Shown here: piece after piece, positions 16,580 through 33,490 of the stretch
Position numbering within the stretch: the stretch's first letter is position 1
Layout: each line of letters starts with the position of its first letter
Origin: a virus
Length of the DNA: 36,128 bases
Virus record (IMG/VR): IMGVR_UViG_3300047455_000348
Location: 1-36,128 of that record
Direction: 5' to 3' (one strand)
Position numbers and translations under genes: made by a program
Notes under the pieces: generated by a model
What the model was told of the DNA's origin: nothing
The model's database searches: none
Seen by the model: only the letters and a program-made list of their open reading frames with translations

Positions 16580-17341
16580 ATGACCATGAAACCGATCCTC
16601 CCATGGATGGGAGGCAAGCGCCGTCTTGCGAAAGCCATCATCCCCCAGTTCCAGCCACACAGAACCTATGTGGAACCCTTCTGCGGGGGAGCGGCCATCT
16701 TCTTCTTGAAAGATCCGAGCCCCGTAGAGGTGATCAATGATGCCCATGGGGAGTTGGTGAATCTCTATCGCATCGTCAAGCACCACCCCGACGAGCTGGT
16801 GCGCCAGTTCCGCTGGAGCCTGGTAAGCCGGGAAGAGTACCTGGCTCAGCGTGAAGTGAACCCGCGCCACCTCACTGACATTCAGCGCGCGGCACGCTTC
16901 TTCTACCTGCAGAAGCTGGCCTTCGGTGGCAAGGTACACGGCCAGACCTTCGGGACGTCAGCGACCAGCCCACCTCGTCTCAACCTGATGCGCATTGAGG
17001 AGGATTTGAGCCAGGCACACCTCCGGCTATCTCGCACGGTGATCGAGCATCTAGACTGGTCGGAATGCGTGACGCGCTACGATCGGCCCGAGACGCTCTT
17101 CTACCTGGATCCGCCGTACTGGGAAACCGCCGGCTACGGCACCGACTTCGGCCTCGAGCAGTACGAGCGAATGGCCGAGCTGGCACGGAAAGCGAAAGGG
17201 CAGGTCGTCATCAGCGTCAACGATATCCCGGAGATGCGGCGTGTCTTCGCGGGCCTCAAGATCCACACCACCCAGATCAACTACACCGTCGGCAAGCAAT
17301 CAACTGGGAAGCGGGGAGAGCTGATCATCACCAACCGTTGA
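16580..17341 (+). CDS. D12-class adenine-N6 DNA methyltransferase
   Basis: 253 residues. Motif I is EPFCGGAAIFF (about 32-42), preceded by the N-terminal PWMGGKRRL loop that binds S-adenosylmethionine. The catalytic DPPY is at about 177-180 (YLDPPYWET). The order is that of the alpha-class (Dam-like) enzymes. The middle segment FYLQKLAFGGKVHGQTFGTS differs from the NRTxxNGL type of Dam, so the target site is unknown. It lies between Q and the cos-like region as cargo, with its own terminator. ATG 16586 is an alternative start with slightly better spacing to AGGA. It probably protects phage DNA from host restriction (inference). Confidence 0.93.
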   Translation: MTMKPILPWMGGKRRLAKAIIPQFQPHRTYVEPFCGGAAIFFLKDPSPVEVINDAHGELVNLYRIVKHHPDELVRQFRWSLVSREEYLAQREVNPRHLTDIQRAARFFYLQKLAFGGKVHGQTFGTSATSPPRLNLMRIEEDLSQAHLRLSRTVIEHLDWSECVTRYDRPETLFYLDPPYWETAGYGTDFGLEQYERMAELARKAKGQVVISVNDIPEMRRVFAGLKIHTTQINYTVGKQSTGKRGELIITNR

Positions 17342-27104: not shown

Positions 27105-28280
27105 ATGACTGCTCAGGCTGAAATGTTTCATCGCTACAGCGATAAGGATATTTTCGATATATCATGTGTTCCTGTTAAGCAGCCTATTGGCATGTTTTTT
27201 ATGGGAGCTATCGATTACCGGGATCTGATTGATATCACTCACACAGATGTGAGAAGGATTGATGGGGAAAGAGGGTTCGAAACTTATCTAGGTATTCAGC
27301 GACCATTAAGCAAAAAGCGCGTTGATGAAATAGCTGAGTACGTAAATAGCTTTGACGCTTGCTTTCCTACAGCAGTGATTCTTTCAGTGGATGGGAAGTG
27401 TGCTGAGTATGATGACAAGACTGGAACCCTTAGCTTGTCACCTTATGTAAGTGAGACCAATGAAGAGGACGATGAGGATATACCTCTTCAAAAAATTGCG
27501 AAAGTTATTGATGGGCAGCACAGAATAGAGGGGCTGAAGGGTTATAATGGGAAAGAAGATTTTCAGGTTAATGTTTCAATATTTGTAGATATTGACGTGG
27601 CTTCTGAGGCTTATATTTTCTCCACTGTCAATATTGCTCAGACAAAGATAAATAAAAGTCTTCTTTACGACCTTTATGATCTGGCTGAATCAAGGAGTCC
27701 TCAGAAGCTTTGTCACGATATTGCAGTTTCTCTTAATGAGACTAAGGGGAGTCCGCTTTATAAAAGAATAAAGAGGCTTGGTGTAGCAAGTCCTCATACT
27801 TTGCCTGGTGCTATCACTCAGGCTGCGTTTGTTCAGTCTTTGATGAAATATTTGAGCAGGAAGCCTCAGAAGGATAGAGATCTTTATATCAGGAATAAAA
27901 AGATACCTAGAGTTGAGCCAAAAGATCAAAATAAGCTCATTTTTAGAGATTTTATGATAGATGAGCGAGACTTTGAGCTTACAGATATACTCTGGTACTA
28001 CTTTTCTGCCGTTTCAAAGCGGTGGCCGACAGCTTGGGATGCTGAAGACAGGGGTGTAATGCTTCGTCGTACTAATGGCTTCATGGCATTAATGAGGTTT
28101 CTTAAACATTGCTACTTATATATTGGAAAGGAGATTCCTAAAGAGGGTGATTTTAAAGATATATTTGATGCAATGGATTTGGAAGATGATCATTTCACAA
28201 CTGATAATTATAAGCCTGGCTCCAGTGGTGAGGCGGCTCTTTACAGGACCTTGAAAGAGCATGCGCCTTTCGAGATCTAA
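27105..28280 (+). CDS. DGQHR-domain protein (DndB-like superfamily)
   Basis: 391 residues. The hallmark VIDGQHRIEGL is at about 135-145. It is preceded by GIQRPLSKKRVDEIAEYVNS and FPTAVILSVDG, the usual order in DGQHR proteins. The superfamily, which includes DndB of DNA phosphorothioation systems, has a ParB/Srx-like nucleotide-binding fold and recurs in defence islands. The middle (FSTVNIAQTKINKSLLYDLY) is also typical. No dnd modification genes accompany it. It is AT-rich, follows the membrane protein at 2 nt and converges on a methyltransferase with a 4-nt overlap of ends. Confidence 0.88.
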   Translation: MTAQAEMFHRYSDKDIFDISCVPVKQPIGMFFMGAIDYRDLIDITHTDVRRIDGERGFETYLGIQRPLSKKRVDEIAEYVNSFDACFPTAVILSVDGKCAEYDDKTGTLSLSPYVSETNEEDDEDIPLQKIAKVIDGQHRIEGLKGYNGKEDFQVNVSIFVDIDVASEAYIFSTVNIAQTKINKSLLYDLYDLAESRSPQKLCHDIAVSLNETKGSPLYKRIKRLGVASPHTLPGAITQAAFVQSLMKYLSRKPQKDRDLYIRNKKIPRVEPKDQNKLIFRDFMIDERDFELTDILWYYFSAVSKRWPTAWDAEDRGVMLRRTNGFMALMRFLKHCYLYIGKEIPKEGDFKDIFDAMDLEDDHFTTDNYKPGSSGEAALYRTLKEHAPFEI

Positions 28281-29089
28281 TTCCAGCATTTGATGGCGAG
28301 TTCTGAGTATTTTCCTCTGAACTCGCTTTTTCCCGACAGCACGCTGCTTCTTGATAGCGTGCTGTGCTGCACATAGTCTTGGTAAAGATCTATTATTGAT
28401 TCGTGGTTTGCGTTGGTGAGCAATACCTTTGCTCCCCTTTCTGTTGCACGATCAATGGCATGCTTTAGTCTGACCTGATCTTCCCACGAGAATAGCTTCT
28501 CGTTGTATTTCACGAAACCGTTGTAGTTATGCCTTACCGTGTAGGGAGGATCGACAAAAACAAAATCGTTTTCCTGCGCCGCATTAACAATTTCTTCAAA
28601 GTCGGAGCGCGTGATCACAGAGCGACGGAGCAGCTTAGCGGTTTCTCTGAAGTTGTCCGTATCAAGCACCACGTTGCTCTTGGTTCCTTTTGGAACGTTG
28701 AACTTTCCCGAAAGGTTGACGCGATAAAGCCCGTTCCAGCAGGTTCTGTTCAAGTAGATCATGCGTGCTGCGATCTCTTCCTGCTTGGTCGGCGTCTGGT
28801 CGCGCATGAAGTAGTAAAACTCTTCGGAGTGCTGCTCGTGGTAGCTTTTGAGCAGATTCTCGACCATGCGATTCCGATTTCTCAGGGCACGATATGTCGT
28901 GATGAGCTCCTGGTTCGCATCGGATAGCAAGGCCTGCTGAGGCTGCAAATGGAAAAACACCGAGCCGCTTCCGAGAAAGGGCTCAATGTAGGTGTTGAAC
29001 TCAGTGGGGAAGATCTCAGGATGATCGCGGACCAACCACCTTTTACCCCCGGCCCACTTCAGAAAGGGCAGTACGATCTGCTCTGACAT
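28277..29089 (-). CDS. dam: Dam-like adenine-N6 DNA methyltransferase
   Basis: 270 residues, the usual Dam length. It has the N-terminal PFLKWAGGKRWLV, motif I EPFLGSGSVFF (about 36-46), NRTCWNGLYRVN (about 114-125), the segment by which Dam-type enzymes are recognised, and the catalytic DPPY at 180-183. GATC is therefore the probable target (inference). AGGA lies 7-8 nt before ATG 29089. It lies 64 nt downstream of umuC on the same strand, possibly in the same SOS transcript. It is distinct from the methyltransferase at 16580. Confidence 0.9.
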   Translation of the reverse strand: MSEQIVLPFLKWAGGKRWLVRDHPEIFPTEFNTYIEPFLGSGSVFFHLQPQQALLSDANQELITTYRALRNRNRMVENLLKSYHEQHSEEFYYFMRDQTPTKQEEIAARMIYLNRTCWNGLYRVNLSGKFNVPKGTKSNVVLDTDNFRETAKLLRRSVITRSDFEEIVNAAQENDFVFVDPPYTVRHNYNGFVKYNEKLFSWEDQVRLKHAIDRATERGAKVLLTNANHESIIDLYQDYVQHSTLSRSSVLSGKSEFRGKYSELAIKCWN

Positions 29090-29153: not shown

Positions 29154-30434
29154 CTAAAGGGTCGTAACGCAAGGCAATTCTCCCCACTGCGTCGTCCACC
29201 GCGGCGTGCGGTGCGCGCAGCGCAGGTGCCAGGCGGCGTTCTGCCGCGGCACGCCCAGGCGCACCGTGCCCTTGCCCATCTTCCCGTTCAGCTCGTCTAT
29301 GGCGGCCATCAGCTTGTGGTCGCGCTCGCGCTGGGCTTCCCGCTCGGGCGTGTCGAGCAGCGAGAGCTGCTCGCGGTTGGCGTCCACCAGGTCGAGCAGC
29401 ATCACGCCGGCCTTCATGAAGCAATACCCGCGGCGATAGATCGTCTCGAGCCCCTGGCGGGCGGCGGCGAGGATCGGCCGGCTGTCGTCGGTGGGCTCGG
29501 GCAGCTCGACGACGACGCTGGGCGAGTACTGGGGTAGATCGGGCCGGTGACGGTTGGTCTTGAGGAAGACGAGCACGGCGCGGGCGTGGCTGTCCTGCTG
29601 GCGGAGCTTCTCGGCGCCGCGCTGGGCGTGCTGGCGGATGGCGTCCTGTAGGTCGCCCAGCTCGCCGGTCAGGCGGCCGAAGGAGCGCGAGGTCATGATG
29701 CGCTGGCGGGGCTCGCTGGCGTCGTTGAGCTCGATGCAGGGCGTGCCCTGTAGCTCGCGCACGGTGCGCTCGAGGGTGACGGAGTAGCGCCGGCGGATGG
29801 CCTTGGGGTCGGCCTGGCGGAGATCCCAGGCGGTCTTGATGCCCTGGAGAGCGAGCCGTTCAACAAGCCGCTGGCCCACGCCCCAGATGTCGCCCAAGGC
29901 GGTGTGCTCGAGTAGGCGGCGAGTGTCAGCACCGTCGGCGTGCATGACGCAGGTACCGCCGTACTCCGGCAGCTTTTTGGCGGCTCGGTTGGCTAGCTTG
30001 GCCAGGGTACGGGTGGGCGCGATGCCAACGCAGACGGGGATGCCGGTGAATTGGCGCACGTTGCGGTAGAGCGTGCGGGCCAAGGCCTGGGTGGTGGCGG
30101 CGTCGAAGCCGTCGAAGCGCACGAACATTTCGTCGATGGAGTAGGGCTCGACGCCGGCGGAGAACTCCTCGAGGACTTCACGCACCCGAGCGCTCATGTC
30201 GCCGTAGAGCTCGTAGTTGGACGAGAGCAGATGGATGCGGCCCTGGTTGACCCACTCCTGCAGCTCGAAGGCTGGGGTGCCCATCTCGACGCCCAGAGCC
30301 TTGAGTTCGTTGGAGCGGGCGATCACGCAGCCATCGTTGTTCGACATCACCCCCACCGGTACGCCCTCTAGCCGTGGTTGGAAGACGCGCTCGCAGCTGA
30401 CGTAGAAGTTGTTGCAGTCCACGAGCCCAATCAT
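29154..30434 (-). CDS. umuC: UmuC-like Y-family DNA polymerase
   Basis: 426 residues (E. coli UmuC 422) from ATG 30434, overlapping the umuD stop as ATGA. It is an error-prone translesion polymerase that works with processed UmuD. The catalytic acids are D6 ([11 protein letters not shown]) and D101/E102 ([10 protein letters not shown]). A palm and thumb with [15 protein letters not shown] (helix-hairpin-helix) follow, then the little finger domain. QLSLLD (after DANRE) matches a beta-clamp binding pattern. It is under the LexA box at 30893. Confidence 0.96.
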
Positions 30435-30871
30435 ACGACGAACTCGTGGATGACCGAGCGCACCACCCCCCATACCTGGCACTCGATGTTGGCAAGCGGA
30501 ATCGGCGCGTACTGGAAGTTGCCAGAGCACAGGTAGGGCCGCCGGCCAATTATCTCGTAGCGCTTCACGATCACTTCGCCGTCGACCAGGGCGACGACGA
30601 TATGACCGGGCTTCGCGTCTATGGAGCGGTCTACCACCAGGGTGTCACCGTCCTGGATGCCAAAGTCGACCATGCTGTCGCCGGCGACGGTCATGAAGAA
30701 GGTGGCTGCAGGGCGTTTCACCAGCCGCTCGTTGAGGTCGAGCGTGCGGCCGACGTAGTCCTCCGCCGGTGAGGGGAAGCCGGAGATACCGGCGCGGATG
30801 GTAATCAGCGGATGGGGCAAGGCGCGGTACGGTGGCGCCGGGTGCGGATGGCGGATCTCGGGATCGCGCAT
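30431..30871 (-). CDS. umuD: UmuD-like SOS mutagenesis protease
   Basis: 146 residues from ATG 30871. It undergoes RecA-stimulated self-cleavage to form the active UmuD' partner of UmuC. Ser 66 (AGDSMVDFG) and Lys 103 (VIVKRYEI) form the dyad. The cleavage region reads [12 protein letters not shown], i.e. Ser 30-Gly 31 instead of the Cys-Gly of E. coli or the more common Ala-Gly. The first 20 residues are rich in P, H and R. Confidence 0.95.
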
Positions 30872-30892
30872 GGCGGTGCCTCTTGTCAAAAA

Positions 30893-31023: not shown

Positions 31024-31377
31024 ATGCGAGTGAACTACCTCGGCCCGGCGATGCTGGGTATCAAACACCCCGCGCTGGAAGGCTACGACCTCTCCGGCTT
31101 TCCCCCGAGCTGCTATGTGGTCGAGGTGAGCGAAGAAGCCGGCGTGAATGGCCCGCTGATGGAAGGTGACCTACTGGTTGTCGATGAGCAGAAGCCCGCC
31201 GGGCACGCGGATCTGGTGGTGGTAGACCTGGAAGGTGAGCAGCGGCTCTTCAAGAGCCATCGCATCGGCGGGCGCCTGCGCCTGATGCCGACCGCCGGCC
31301 CCAAGGAATCGCTATGGGCCAGACGGTCGGATCTACGCGGCGTGGTAGTCAGCCAGGCGCGGCGGTATGGGTGGTAG
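31024..31377 (+). CDS. S24/UmuD-like fold protein lacking the catalytic serine
   Basis: 117 residues (AGGGA before ATG 31024). The segment PLMEGDLLVVDEQKPAGHAD with LVVVDLEGEQRLFKSHRIGG aligns with the S24 peptidase core (xxGDxLVVD, GDlVVV, K). Where UmuD has Ser 66, this protein has Ala 39 (SEEAGVNGP). The catalytic lysine position is kept as K77. No helix-turn-helix is present. It is probably an inactive S24 domain that binds UmuD, LexA or CI-like partners (inference). It is transcribed divergently from umuDC. Confidence 0.75.
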   Translation: MRVNYLGPAMLGIKHPALEGYDLSGFPPSCYVVEVSEEAGVNGPLMEGDLLVVDEQKPAGHADLVVVDLEGEQRLFKSHRIGGRLRLMPTAGPKESLWARRSDLRGVVVSQARRYGW

Positions 31378-31383
31378 GAACTG

Positions 31384-32142
31384 TCAGCCTGCAAGGTCTA
31401 AGTACTGCGCTTCATTCACGGACCTTACATACGAAAGGATTCCATTGATGACTTCTTGATTTTTTGCTTCTGCAATTTGAAATCTGAATTTTTCCAACCT
31501 TGGTTTTTCAATTTCCAAATGATTGTGTGATAGGAGGATGTTGAAAGCGGAAATGGACTCGGAAACTTTGGGTTGACTGTCGATCCCAAAAGGAAGTAGG
31601 GAGCGAGACGATTTTTCTAACAAGATCCTGCAAGCTTCTTCTAATGGAGCTTTTTCAGTCCCGGAAATAATGATGTCGTCTACATATACGCTGACATTTA
31701 ACGTATTGGATATCTTTTCTAGGTATTGGCCCAATGCGCTGTCCCATAGGCATATTGAAGCAAGAATGGTTGACTGCGGGTAACCGTAGGGAAGATGGTA
31801 AGCGGTATCTGTTCTATCAGGAATCCGGACTGTAGAAGATACTGCGATATTTCTAGCTACTTTGTATGGCAGTGATCTCTTTAATGACCTGGTGATTCGC
31901 GTTCTGTTGATCTTTCCGAAAAAGTTTTCTATGTCGGCGTGTATAAAGTAAAGGCTATCGGTATGGCTTTTTATTGCCTCTACATGCCCACCATTTTGGA
32001 GGTGAAAGTAGTTTTTAGGGGGTGTGAAGACTGTGTTGACGAGCTTTTGGATTTTACTCCCTTCTTCGAGAGTTTCCTCAGTAGGGATGTACACCCAGCG
32101 TCCCGGCTTCACTTCGAACTTATCTTGCCATCTCAGGGACAT
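31384..32142 (-). CDS. Compact reverse transcriptase (defence-type candidate)
   Basis: 252 residues. All core palm motifs are visible: D70 in YFIHADIENFFGKIN, PYGYPQSTILASICLW at about 118-133, and the catalytic YVDD at 153-156 (VSVYVDDIIIS). A short region follows with no clear thumb or intron-maturase domain, so it is neither a group II intron protein nor the roughly 500-residue Abi-P2 type. It could belong to a short unknown-group or defence-associated RT lineage. The gene is AT-rich and sits in the phage cargo block. Its ATG lies inside the 3' end of the small gene before it (23-nt overlap). Confidence 0.9.
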   Translation of the reverse strand: MSLRWQDKFEVKPGRWVYIPTEETLEEGSKIQKLVNTVFTPPKNYFHLQNGGHVEAIKSHTDSLYFIHADIENFFGKINRTRITRSLKRSLPYKVARNIAVSSTVRIPDRTDTAYHLPYGYPQSTILASICLWDSALGQYLEKISNTLNVSVYVDDIIISGTEKAPLEEACRILLEKSSRSLLPFGIDSQPKVSESISAFNILLSHNHLEIEKPRLEKFRFQIAEAKNQEVINGILSYVRSVNEAQYLDLAG

Positions 32143-32284
32143 GATTTTTTCGATAGTTAAGGGCCACGCTCAGGACATCTAAAATCATGCTGACCTTGTC
32201 CGTCCACGTCACCGAAAGACCGATGATGTGTAGGGCAAGCATGATGCGCTCCCGAGCTAGCCGAGAAGGTTTTTGATTTCCCAT
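32120..32284 (-). CDS. Small helical protein coupled to the reverse transcriptase
   Basis: 54 residues from ATG 32284 (AGGAG at 8 nt). It reads MGNQKPSRLARERIMLALHI and then a hydrophobic helix-rich stretch to a basic NYRKNHVPEMAR. No family is recognised. It overlaps the RT gene by 23 nt in another frame. The good ribosome site lies in front of this gene, and the RT start has none of its own, so RT translation probably depends on it. It may be an RT partner or only a leader peptide. Confidence 0.68.
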   Translation of the reverse strand: MGNQKPSRLARERIMLALHIIGLSVTWTDKVSMILDVLSVALNYRKNHVPEMAR

Positions 32285-32485
32285 TTCTCGGACTCCTCTA
32301 TACGTCTTGGCCTGACTAGCGCTATGCGCATGACCCAATAACCAACCAACGGAACATGGCGAACATGAAGCGATAGTAACCATGGCAACGTTCAGTACGT
32401 CACAGTGTGACTGAGGAGAACAGGTGGCCGGGAAGAGCCGCCTATCGCCAAGACATGTATTTTGTAACAGTCTGAAAGTCTTCTT
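32285..32485. other. Intergenic region between D and the RT pair
   Basis: These 201 bp hold a palindrome GTCACA-G-TGTGAC (32399-32411). They also hold a hairpin AGGTGGC (32422-32428) with GCCGCCT (32437-32443), more stable on the + strand because of a G-U pair. No T-tract terminator is seen after D. It may hold the RT promoter or a non-coding RNA, but nothing proves this. Confidence 0.4.
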
Positions 32486-33490
32486 TCAATCCCCCTTCAC
32501 CTCACACTGCACCCGCGTGCCAAAGCCGTTGTCATCGAGTGAATCTTCCACTTCCGTGACCAGCCAGGGCGTGGCGTCGATGTCCGGCTTGAAGCCGATG
32601 GCTGTGAGTGGCGACTCGGGGAGGATGTCGGCACGCCCTTCGGCAAGAGTAATGTCGAAGGTGGCTTCGCCGCGTTGCACGCGCCGCCATTCGGCTTTGG
32701 CGGCGTCCAGGGCGTCGGCCTGGCTGGCGTAGGTGGGGCGCAGTTCCTTGGCATCTTCGTCGCTGCCGGCGATGACACGCTGGCGCTTGGCGTTTGCCTT
32801 GTCGTTCCAGTAGGCGATGACGCCGGTATAAGTGTCGCGATCGGTGGCGCTGTAGCGGTGCCGATCGCCATCGCGCCGGGTGAGGGTGACGGTCGGCATG
32901 GCCAGGCCGCTGGCCGTCAGTGCTTCGCCGGCTTGTGTGAATAGCAGCCGCGCGGCTTTGACGGTGGCCACGACATCGAAGCGTTCGCCCAGGCGGGTGA
33001 GGAAGTTCAGGTCGCTCTCTTCGGTCTGGTCGATGTGGCCGATGCGGATGCCGCGCACGGTGTCGCCGACCACTGGCTCGAGTGTGTGGCGCTTGGCGAT
33101 GGTGTCGATGATCTCGCCGACGGTGATGTCGTGCCAACTGCGGCTGCGCTTGCCCGGCAGGCGGCCGCGCATGTCGGCGCTGCGCGCGCGGATGGTGATC
33201 TGGTCCGGCGTGCCGCTGTGCTGGACTTCATCGACGGTGAACAGCCCCTTGTCGATCAGGCCTTCATCCTGCCAGCCGTAGGCGACGCGCAGGGACACGC
33301 CGCGCCTCGGTAGCGCGAGCGCGCCATCGTGGTCGGCGAGGGTCAGGTCCAATTGATCGGCCTCGAGGCCACGTTGTGAGCGCAGGCGCAGGCGGATCAA
33401 GCGACCGTTGATCCTGGGCGTAATGTCTTGCTCATCGAGCGTGATGCGGTAACTGGGGCGCCGGTAGCGGCGCTCGGCGTTGTCATTCAT
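32486..33490 (-). CDS. D: Tail protein gpD
   Basis: 334 residues (P2 gpD 387). The family segments RPSYRITLDEQDITPRINGR, LRVAYGWQDEGLIDKGLFTV, LPGKRSRSWHDITVGEIIDT and EESDLNFLTRLGERFDVVA are present. gpD forms the hub of the baseplate around the spike. It starts 4 nt inside the end of U and is the last late gene of the FI operon. In P2, ogr follows here; in this phage it does not. Confidence 0.96.
   Translation of the reverse strand: MNDNAERRYRRPSYRITLDEQDITPRINGRLIRLRLRSQRGLEADQLDLTLADHDGALALPRRGVSLRVAYGWQDEGLIDKGLFTVDEVQHSGTPDQITIRARSADMRGRLPGKRSRSWHDITVGEIIDTIAKRHTLEPVVGDTVRGIRIGHIDQTEESDLNFLTRLGERFDVVATVKAARLLFTQAGEALTASGLAMPTVTLTRRDGDRHRYSATDRDTYTGVIAYWNDKANAKRQRVIAGSDEDAKELRPTYASQADALDAAKAEWRRVQRGEATFDITLAEGRADILPESPLTAIGFKPDIDATPWLVTEVEDSLDDNGFGTRVQCEVKGD

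Follow-up and report, generated by a model that had tools for sequence, protein, structure and literature searches.

The locus studied here raises the question of which kind of system is formed by a compact reverse transcriptase (RT) and the small gene preceding it at a P2-like cargo site. It lies in the window, i.e., the whole 36,128-nt stretch of DNA analyzed (IMG/VR virus record IMGVR_UViG_3300047455_000348, positions 1 to 36,128). A preliminary description, made from the sequence alone, had claimed a compact 252-residue RT with intact catalytic motifs and no extension, and a gene for a small helical protein that has the only good ribosome site and overlaps the RT gene by 23 nt. Both claims held, the former by a YVDD motif, one RVT_1 domain, and no extra domain, and the latter by coordinates and sequence. 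What had been overlooked is a structured RNA directly upstream of the small gene, and the 'RT of unknown group' therefore becomes a 'retron-like tripartite system'. A conserved locus with the order ncRNA, small ORF, RT is shown, with a covarying a1/a2 stem and an RT of retron fold, the last by structure prediction. We consider it likely, at a probability of ca. 0.66, that the cassette is an undescribed retron type in which a small membrane-active or amphipathic effector is under RT–msDNA control; msDNA, toxicity, and defence are inferred. The two ORFs and a candidate promoter are located as follows.

31384–32142, minus strand: RT ORF of 252 aa, with YVDD, HVxAxxxH in region X, and AFN replacing VTG
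32120–32284, minus strand: small ORF of 54 aa, helical, with an ATG start and the SD GAGGAG; the proposed effector
32461–32489, minus strand: candidate weak sigma-70-like promoter, TTGAAA (32489–32484), 17 nt, TACAAA (32466–32461)

On the minus strand, the cassette reads ncRNA, 54-aa small ORF, and RT. The two ORFs share 32120–32142, and inspection of the sequence found no site comparable to GAGGAG directly 5' of the RT ATG. The upstream side is occupied by the P2-like late gene D (32486–33490; phrog_52, E 9e-133), and the cassette faces a divergent UmuD-like gene. The candidate promoter ends just short of a1 and overlaps the gene D stop. A mechanical promoter scan with stricter rules found none in the window, TTGAAA-17-TACAAA being under its threshold. 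Across the family, a TATAAT-like hexamer (at least 5/6) is present just 5' of a1 in 41% of the loci vs. 15% in shuffles. At 29154–30889 and 31024–31377, the window carries a phage-borne UmuC-type polymerase with a UmuD-like gene, and a second, weaker UmuD-like ORF that adjoins the retron on the opposite strand. The window also has two distinct Dam-like DNA adenine methyltransferase ORFs (16580–17341 and 28277–29089), the second of which matches phrog_56; some retrons are reportedly triggered by DNA methylation (PMC12548924). Next to the methyltransferase, the cargo block encodes a 391-aa protein (27105–28280) whose only match is a weak, ParB-like one.

We then inspected the RT. Its Pfam match is a single RVT_1 domain (E 3.6e-10) without any extra domain. 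Several PADLOC retron models score 30–63 bits on it, the best 62.9 bits, vs. 188–511 bits for genuine members with the four PADLOC RT/UG models searched, and no NCBIfam equivalog reaches its cut-off. A search with RT_IX turned up no member scoring well above type VI or II-A RTs. The AlphaFold2 model of the RT, built with 70 aligned relatives, has a pLDDT of 96.8 and a pTM of 0.91. Retron RTs (Ec83, retron IA, Ec86, Eco7, Eco8, Ec78, and Ec67) take all of its first 14 PDB ranks, with DRT9, UG15, DRT2, and group II structures ranked below, and the top ranks of a profile search are the retron RTs of Kva2, Eco8, Ec86, and Ec83. The fold predicted by the model is retron-like. The family's own profile scores members at 250 bits or more and all others at 62 or less, and a maximum-likelihood tree places the family in a clade with 100/100 support, apart from type VI, other retrons, UG17, and group II RTs. 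The deep joins between groups in this tree are affected by long branches and were not used.

Retron signature motifs are missing from the family. NAxxH of region X is found at the right position in none of 124 members, which have HxxAxxxH there instead; VTG, at the start of region Y, is in place in 0/124, the aligned position reading aFN; and YADD occurs in 0/124, with YMDD, YVDD, or FMDD in its stead. Five apparent NAxxH and two VTG-like regex matches within the family were discounted as lying at wrong positions. Of 16 validated retron RTs, 14 have NAxxH and VTG, and two deviate (PMC6868368). The family RT is also short, with ca. 250 aa vs. ca. 310–350 aa for most of the retron RTs compared, and starts at a position corresponding to residue ca. 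50–60 of the Ec86 RT.

Single-sequence scans of viral and genome collections returned no homologues. Tblastn with the RT found Klebsiella Peduoviridae phages and proteobacterial plasmids at 30–39% identity, and scans based on the alignment of these relatives yielded 79 genome loci and 49 viral loci, giving 76 non-redundant representatives at 75% identity. The scans being pattern-based, the host range is a lower bound: it comprises at least alpha-, beta-, gamma-, and zeta-proteobacteria, with phages, plasmids, and chromosomes as carriers. One contig of a Roizmanbacteria-labelled MAG is among the loci and is possibly misbinned. An apparent relative (L137) was dropped as a canonical retron RT with NAxxH. 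The closest relatives, at 56–57%, are from Halomonas/Vreelandella and one viral contig. E. coli P2-like prophages carry the system as well; in strain CV839-06, the order is D, ogr, small ORF, RT, ssrA, and the RT scores 320 bits with the family profile. The annotation of the two genes there goes no further than 'hypothetical protein' and 'reverse transcriptase domain-containing protein'. STY2879, a 257-aa RT used as a typhoid assay target, reportedly has 99% similarity to that E. coli RT, its function being left open (PMC4409374). Among the neighbours, no second conserved effector gene beyond the small ORF was found, the gene clusters being host-phage late genes or unrelated; the late genes are the sole other conserved neighbours, and only in the enterobacterial subset. 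Several plasmid copies have defence-type genes beside them (AbiEii, Abi-family, RES/Xre, and an S8 peptidase with an ATPase). The pair of S8 peptidase and ATP-binding protein adjoins the cassette on two unrelated rhizobial plasmids (L005, 691–4038; L007, 5817–9299), and is a recurrent defence-like neighbour.

An automatic rule places the small helical ORF at the same position in 75 of the 76 non-redundant loci, and the remaining one, L052, has it by an earlier survey. It is 39–104 aa long (median 55) and ends near the RT start in every locus with upstream sequence, lying just upstream of the RT gene, overlapping it, or being fused to it. In-frame fusions occur in two enterobacterial sequences and their near copies (L106/L107/L108 and L118); in these fusions (L106, 3842–4750; L118, 3842–4750), an internal ATG might still permit separate translation of the RT. 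A hydrophobic helix is conserved among the small proteins, and close to the end they have an [NSH]Y motif. For the part before the RT overlap, pairwise dN/dS is ca. 0.2–0.35, so purifying selection acts on the small ORF, as shown for the pairs with enough divergence. The best 19-residue hydropathy has a median of 1.76, with 47/74 above 1.6 and the window protein at 1.27, and the net charge is ca. +4; as predicted from sequence, the helix is between transmembrane and amphipathic, and borderline for transmembrane. The small proteins tested, from the window and relatives, have no match above noise in Pfam or NCBIfam and none in PHROGs or PADLOC. AlphaFold2 was also run on a natural fusion, modelled from close rows only; a joint MAFFT alignment of all small ORFs and fusion RTs was set aside as it misplaced the small rows. 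The RT part reaches a pLDDT of ca. 97, and the small part is an unattached single helix with a pLDDT below 50, where the alignment is shallow.

The preliminary description had taken the pair for a possibly undescribed type, to be refuted if the RT fell inside a characterised DRT clade with the same partner or if the small ORF was not conserved with homologous RTs. Neither is the case: model scores and tree exclude the former, and the small ORF is present with all 76 RTs. The claim is supported, as the RT is outside the characterised clades compared.

We next describe the RNA upstream of the small ORF, whose features in the window are listed below.

32302–32456, minus strand: retron-like ncRNA (msr-msd) of ca. 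155 nt, from a1 arm to a2 arm; conserved in 34 aligned loci, with a1/a2 covariation
32447–32456, minus strand: a1 arm ATGTCTTGGC, then GATAGGC with a priming-type TAGG motif
32419–32446, minus strand: msr hairpin 1 (GATAGGC...ACCTGTT), a hairpin in the window MFE
32413–32420, minus strand: arm1 TTCTCCTC, complement of the small gene's SD region
32399–32411, minus strand: invariant hairpin 2 (GTCAC-loop-GTGAC), 100% of cells paired in 34 sequences
32348–32391, minus strand: putative msd, a hairpin of variable sequence and msDNA template, boundaries inferred
32340–32347, minus strand: GGTTGGTT motif preceding conserved hairpin 3
32316–32331, minus strand: conserved hairpin 3 (ATGCGC-loop-GCGCTAG), immediately 5' of a2; almost invariant, with 100% of its cells paired
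32302–32311, minus strand: a2 arm GCCAAGACGT, 6/7 tested pairs with double compensatory changes
32293–32299, minus strand: arm2, the SD region of the small ORF (AGAGGAG), pairing with arm1 and crossing a1/a2

The same order is seen in the family: a1, GATAGGC or GTTAGC, hairpin 1, arm1, the GTCAC/GTGAC hairpin, the variable hairpin region, TTGGTT, the invariant GCGC/GCGC hairpin, a2, SD, and ATG. In the alignment, the hairpin 1 region of the relatives shows complementarity of the GATAGG/CCTATC type. Hairpin 2 gives no covariation signal as it is nearly invariant, and the msd region, located between conserved hairpins, has hairpin-like complementarity by eye in several loci. The a1/a2 cells are paired in 97.4%, and in 27–40% once the partner is slid. 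Double-change cells number 47 vs. 15.4 in shuffles, which leave relatedness in. As the a1/a2 positions had initially been picked by complementarity, we repeated the test with windows anchored only on flanking motifs. Matched arms gave −14.81 kcal/mol and mismatched arms −8.80 kcal/mol, with 0/10000 permutations as good. Some automatic a1/a2 picks in alphaproteobacterial loci were false pairs, and a restricted re-run was used instead. By relaxed rules, 64/75 representatives have an a1/a2 stem with a2 14–27 nt 5' of the small ATG. After a1, 57 of these 64 good-stem loci have TAGC (18/64) or TAGGC (39/64), the latter being the window's version; the priming guanosine of retrons is most commonly in TAGC at the end of the a1/a2 stem (PMC6868368). 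An upstream ncRNA with covarying a1/a2 and a TAG(G)C priming-type motif is shown, and the use of this motif in priming is inferred. No Rfam family matches the window at gathering scores, and a search of three loci with a limit of E 1 brought up none of relevance.

A solitary, unannotated copy of ca. 43 nt of the a2-proximal enterobacterial ncRNA (GGGGCGTAGCGTTATTAGTTTGGGCTATGCGCTTGCGCTA) occurs elsewhere (L189, 2501–2543; L190, 2501–2544). It is present in ca. 208 of 5426 E. coli genomes, within other integrated elements and with no RT beside it, and in L189 a target of c4-type antisense RNA is nearby. It is possibly a relic, a decoy, or a shared phage element.

Arm1 and the SD region form another stem, and the order a1, arm1, a2, arm2 means that the two stems are a pseudoknot or alternatives. 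RNAalifold cannot show crossing stems, so arm1 and arm2 were tested by permutation, their windows being fixed independently of each other's sequence. Own partners gave −12.87 kcal/mol and swapped partners −8.51 kcal/mol (33 loci; 0/10000 permutations), and because own partners beat swapped ones, the pairing exceeds generic anti-SD complementarity. Covariation is seen in the gamma-, beta-, and enterobacterial groups, the last having versions of 10–12 bp (0/5000 permutations as good), and the signal is weak in alphaproteobacteria (13/5000 as good). The window's own stem is short (CUCCUC/GAGGAG), and it is the family that supports the pairing. Folding of the window RNA puts arm1/SD rather than a1/a2 into the MFE structure, with ordinary stability (z −0.84). 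That the arms covary is shown; that the msr-like RNA thereby masks the SD of the small gene is inferred.

In the proposed mechanism, the G in TAG(G)C would provide the 2'-OH from which the RT primes, and the RT would copy the msd part into msDNA. The complex of RT, msr, and msDNA would hold in check the small amphipathic protein, a putative toxic effector acting at the membrane. Phage interference with the complex would release the small protein, and the infected cell would stop. By pairing with the SD, the msr-like RNA may, in the manner of type I antitoxin RNAs, limit translation of the effector in cis and perhaps also in trans. The effector-restraint part is drawn by analogy with retrons as tripartite toxin-antitoxin systems, a reading favoured by the set of parts, by the cargo site of P2-like type, and by the fact that no other partner is conserved. 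Defence, also suggested by the preliminary description, is supported as a guess by the defence-type genes beside several plasmid copies; it remains inferred. Against the main reading stand the lack of NAxxH and VTG in 124/124 members, the borderline hydropathy, a window MFE that is not a1/a2, and the weakness of the arm1/SD stem in alphaproteobacteria. A bolder reading, which we offer tentatively and would not quite bet on, is that the msr RNA of a retron doubles as the type I antitoxin of its own effector. The RNA would then be a pseudoknot in which a1/a2 primes reverse transcription and the crossing stem hides the ribosome site of the toxin; toxin translation and sequestration would both be switched by reverse transcription, by turnover of the RNA, or by a phage attacking msDNA.

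The main rival takes the small protein as a required RT subunit, namely the N-terminal helical part of a retron RT that has been split off. It would account for an RT that has ca. 250 instead of ca. 310–350 aa and begins at Ec86 residue ca. 50–60, and for a helical small ORF that is directly upstream, translationally coupled, never lost, and fused in L106/L107/L108 and L118. We consider it unlikely, however, since the RT alone folds at a pLDDT of 96.8, the hydropathy and net charge of the small protein look membrane-active, and no conserved effector candidate would remain without it; the free, undocked, low-confidence helix in the fusion model also speaks against a subunit, but only moderately given the shallow alignment. 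A translational leader for the RT within a selfish or phage-regulatory retroelement without a defence role is less probable still. The coupled overlap and SD-sequestering stem could indeed control RT expression, but a leader peptide needs neither a dN/dS of ca. 0.3 nor a hydrophobic helix and [NSH]Y motif conserved across classes.

Also improbable is a DRT-like system, in which RT and ncRNA would make a different product (template-dependent repeat, homopolymer, or protein-primed DNA), with the small protein as an accessory. The missing retron signature motifs, the pseudoknot-like crossing stems of the ncRNA, and DRT9 structures among the PDB matches favour it; against it, a1/a2 with TAG(G)C is the priming arrangement of retrons (PMC6868368), retron RTs rank over the DRT9, UG15, and DRT2 structures, and the UG17 model gives 39.5 bits on the window RT vs. 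511 on a true member. The retron type might also be recognised already in a newer classification or a supplement, as lists of subtypes are still expanding ('sixteen subtypes ... with more still being classified'; PMC13405049). This is unlikely too: no model matching the RT type or the small protein was found in PADLOC-DB 2023, NCBIfam 2026, PHROGs, or Pfam, and no description of the family in the literature searched. Prior recognition in a supplement is not excluded, and the founding classification (gkaa1149) was outside the search.

If the reading as an undescribed retron type is true, it adds a widespread retron branch that current defence finders overlook and whose partner proteins (about 40–70 aa) would be the smallest suggested for any retron so far, as well as a link, open to testing, from retron RNA to the translational control of a toxin. 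A likely role would also follow for STY2879, the 'reverse transcriptase' gene that serves as a diagnostic marker for typhoid (PMC4409374). The copies in E. coli P2-like prophages make the system testable in laboratory E. coli, and DNA-writing tools give a further interest in compact RTs that bring their own ncRNA.

Among known systems, DRT1, DRT2, DRT9, and the UG RT systems likewise pair a defence-associated RT with an ncRNA, but their models score low on the window RT (UG17, 39.5 bits; Drt3a, 32.9 bits) and their structures rank lower; a true UG17 RT has 511 bits with its own model. Retron type VI is among the best PADLOC models for the family (76/76 match, best E 4.9e-25) and also has a small gene before the RT on the ncRNA side. 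However, true type VI RTs score 220–300 bits with the type VI model, have NAxxH, and go with an XRE-type HTH partner of ca. 105 aa, whereas the window RT scores 52 bits, its partner is not an HTH protein, and the family is a separate clade (100/100). In two type VI-like loci, an extra conserved-looking ORF of ca. 80 aa with a hydrophobic C-terminus is upstream of the HTH gene (L147, 900–1139; L150, 2727–2981), possibly an unlisted third protein of retron type VI. The type I toxin-antitoxin systems TisB/IstR-1 and Hok/Sok resemble the family in a small, positively charged amphipathic helix and in an RNA that pairs where translation of the toxin mRNA starts (PMC8309996); unlike theirs, the pairing RNA of the family belongs to a retron ncRNA with an RT gene, and no sequence homology is claimed. 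With the retrons whose RTs are solved (Ec83/Eco4, Ec86/Eco1, Ec78/Eco7, Eco8, and Ec67/Eco2), the family shares the RT fold, the upstream ncRNA, the a1/a2 stem, the TAGC-type priming motif, and the P2-like phage cargo site. It differs from them in an RT of ca. 250 aa without the N-terminal extension, NAxxH, VTG, or YADD, and in a helical partner of ca. 55 aa that is none of the solved retron effectors. The Ec48-type retron has a transmembrane effector, a larger protein with two helices, and its RT is also off the NAxxH and VTG consensus (PMC6868368); the proposed effector of the new family would likewise act at the membrane.
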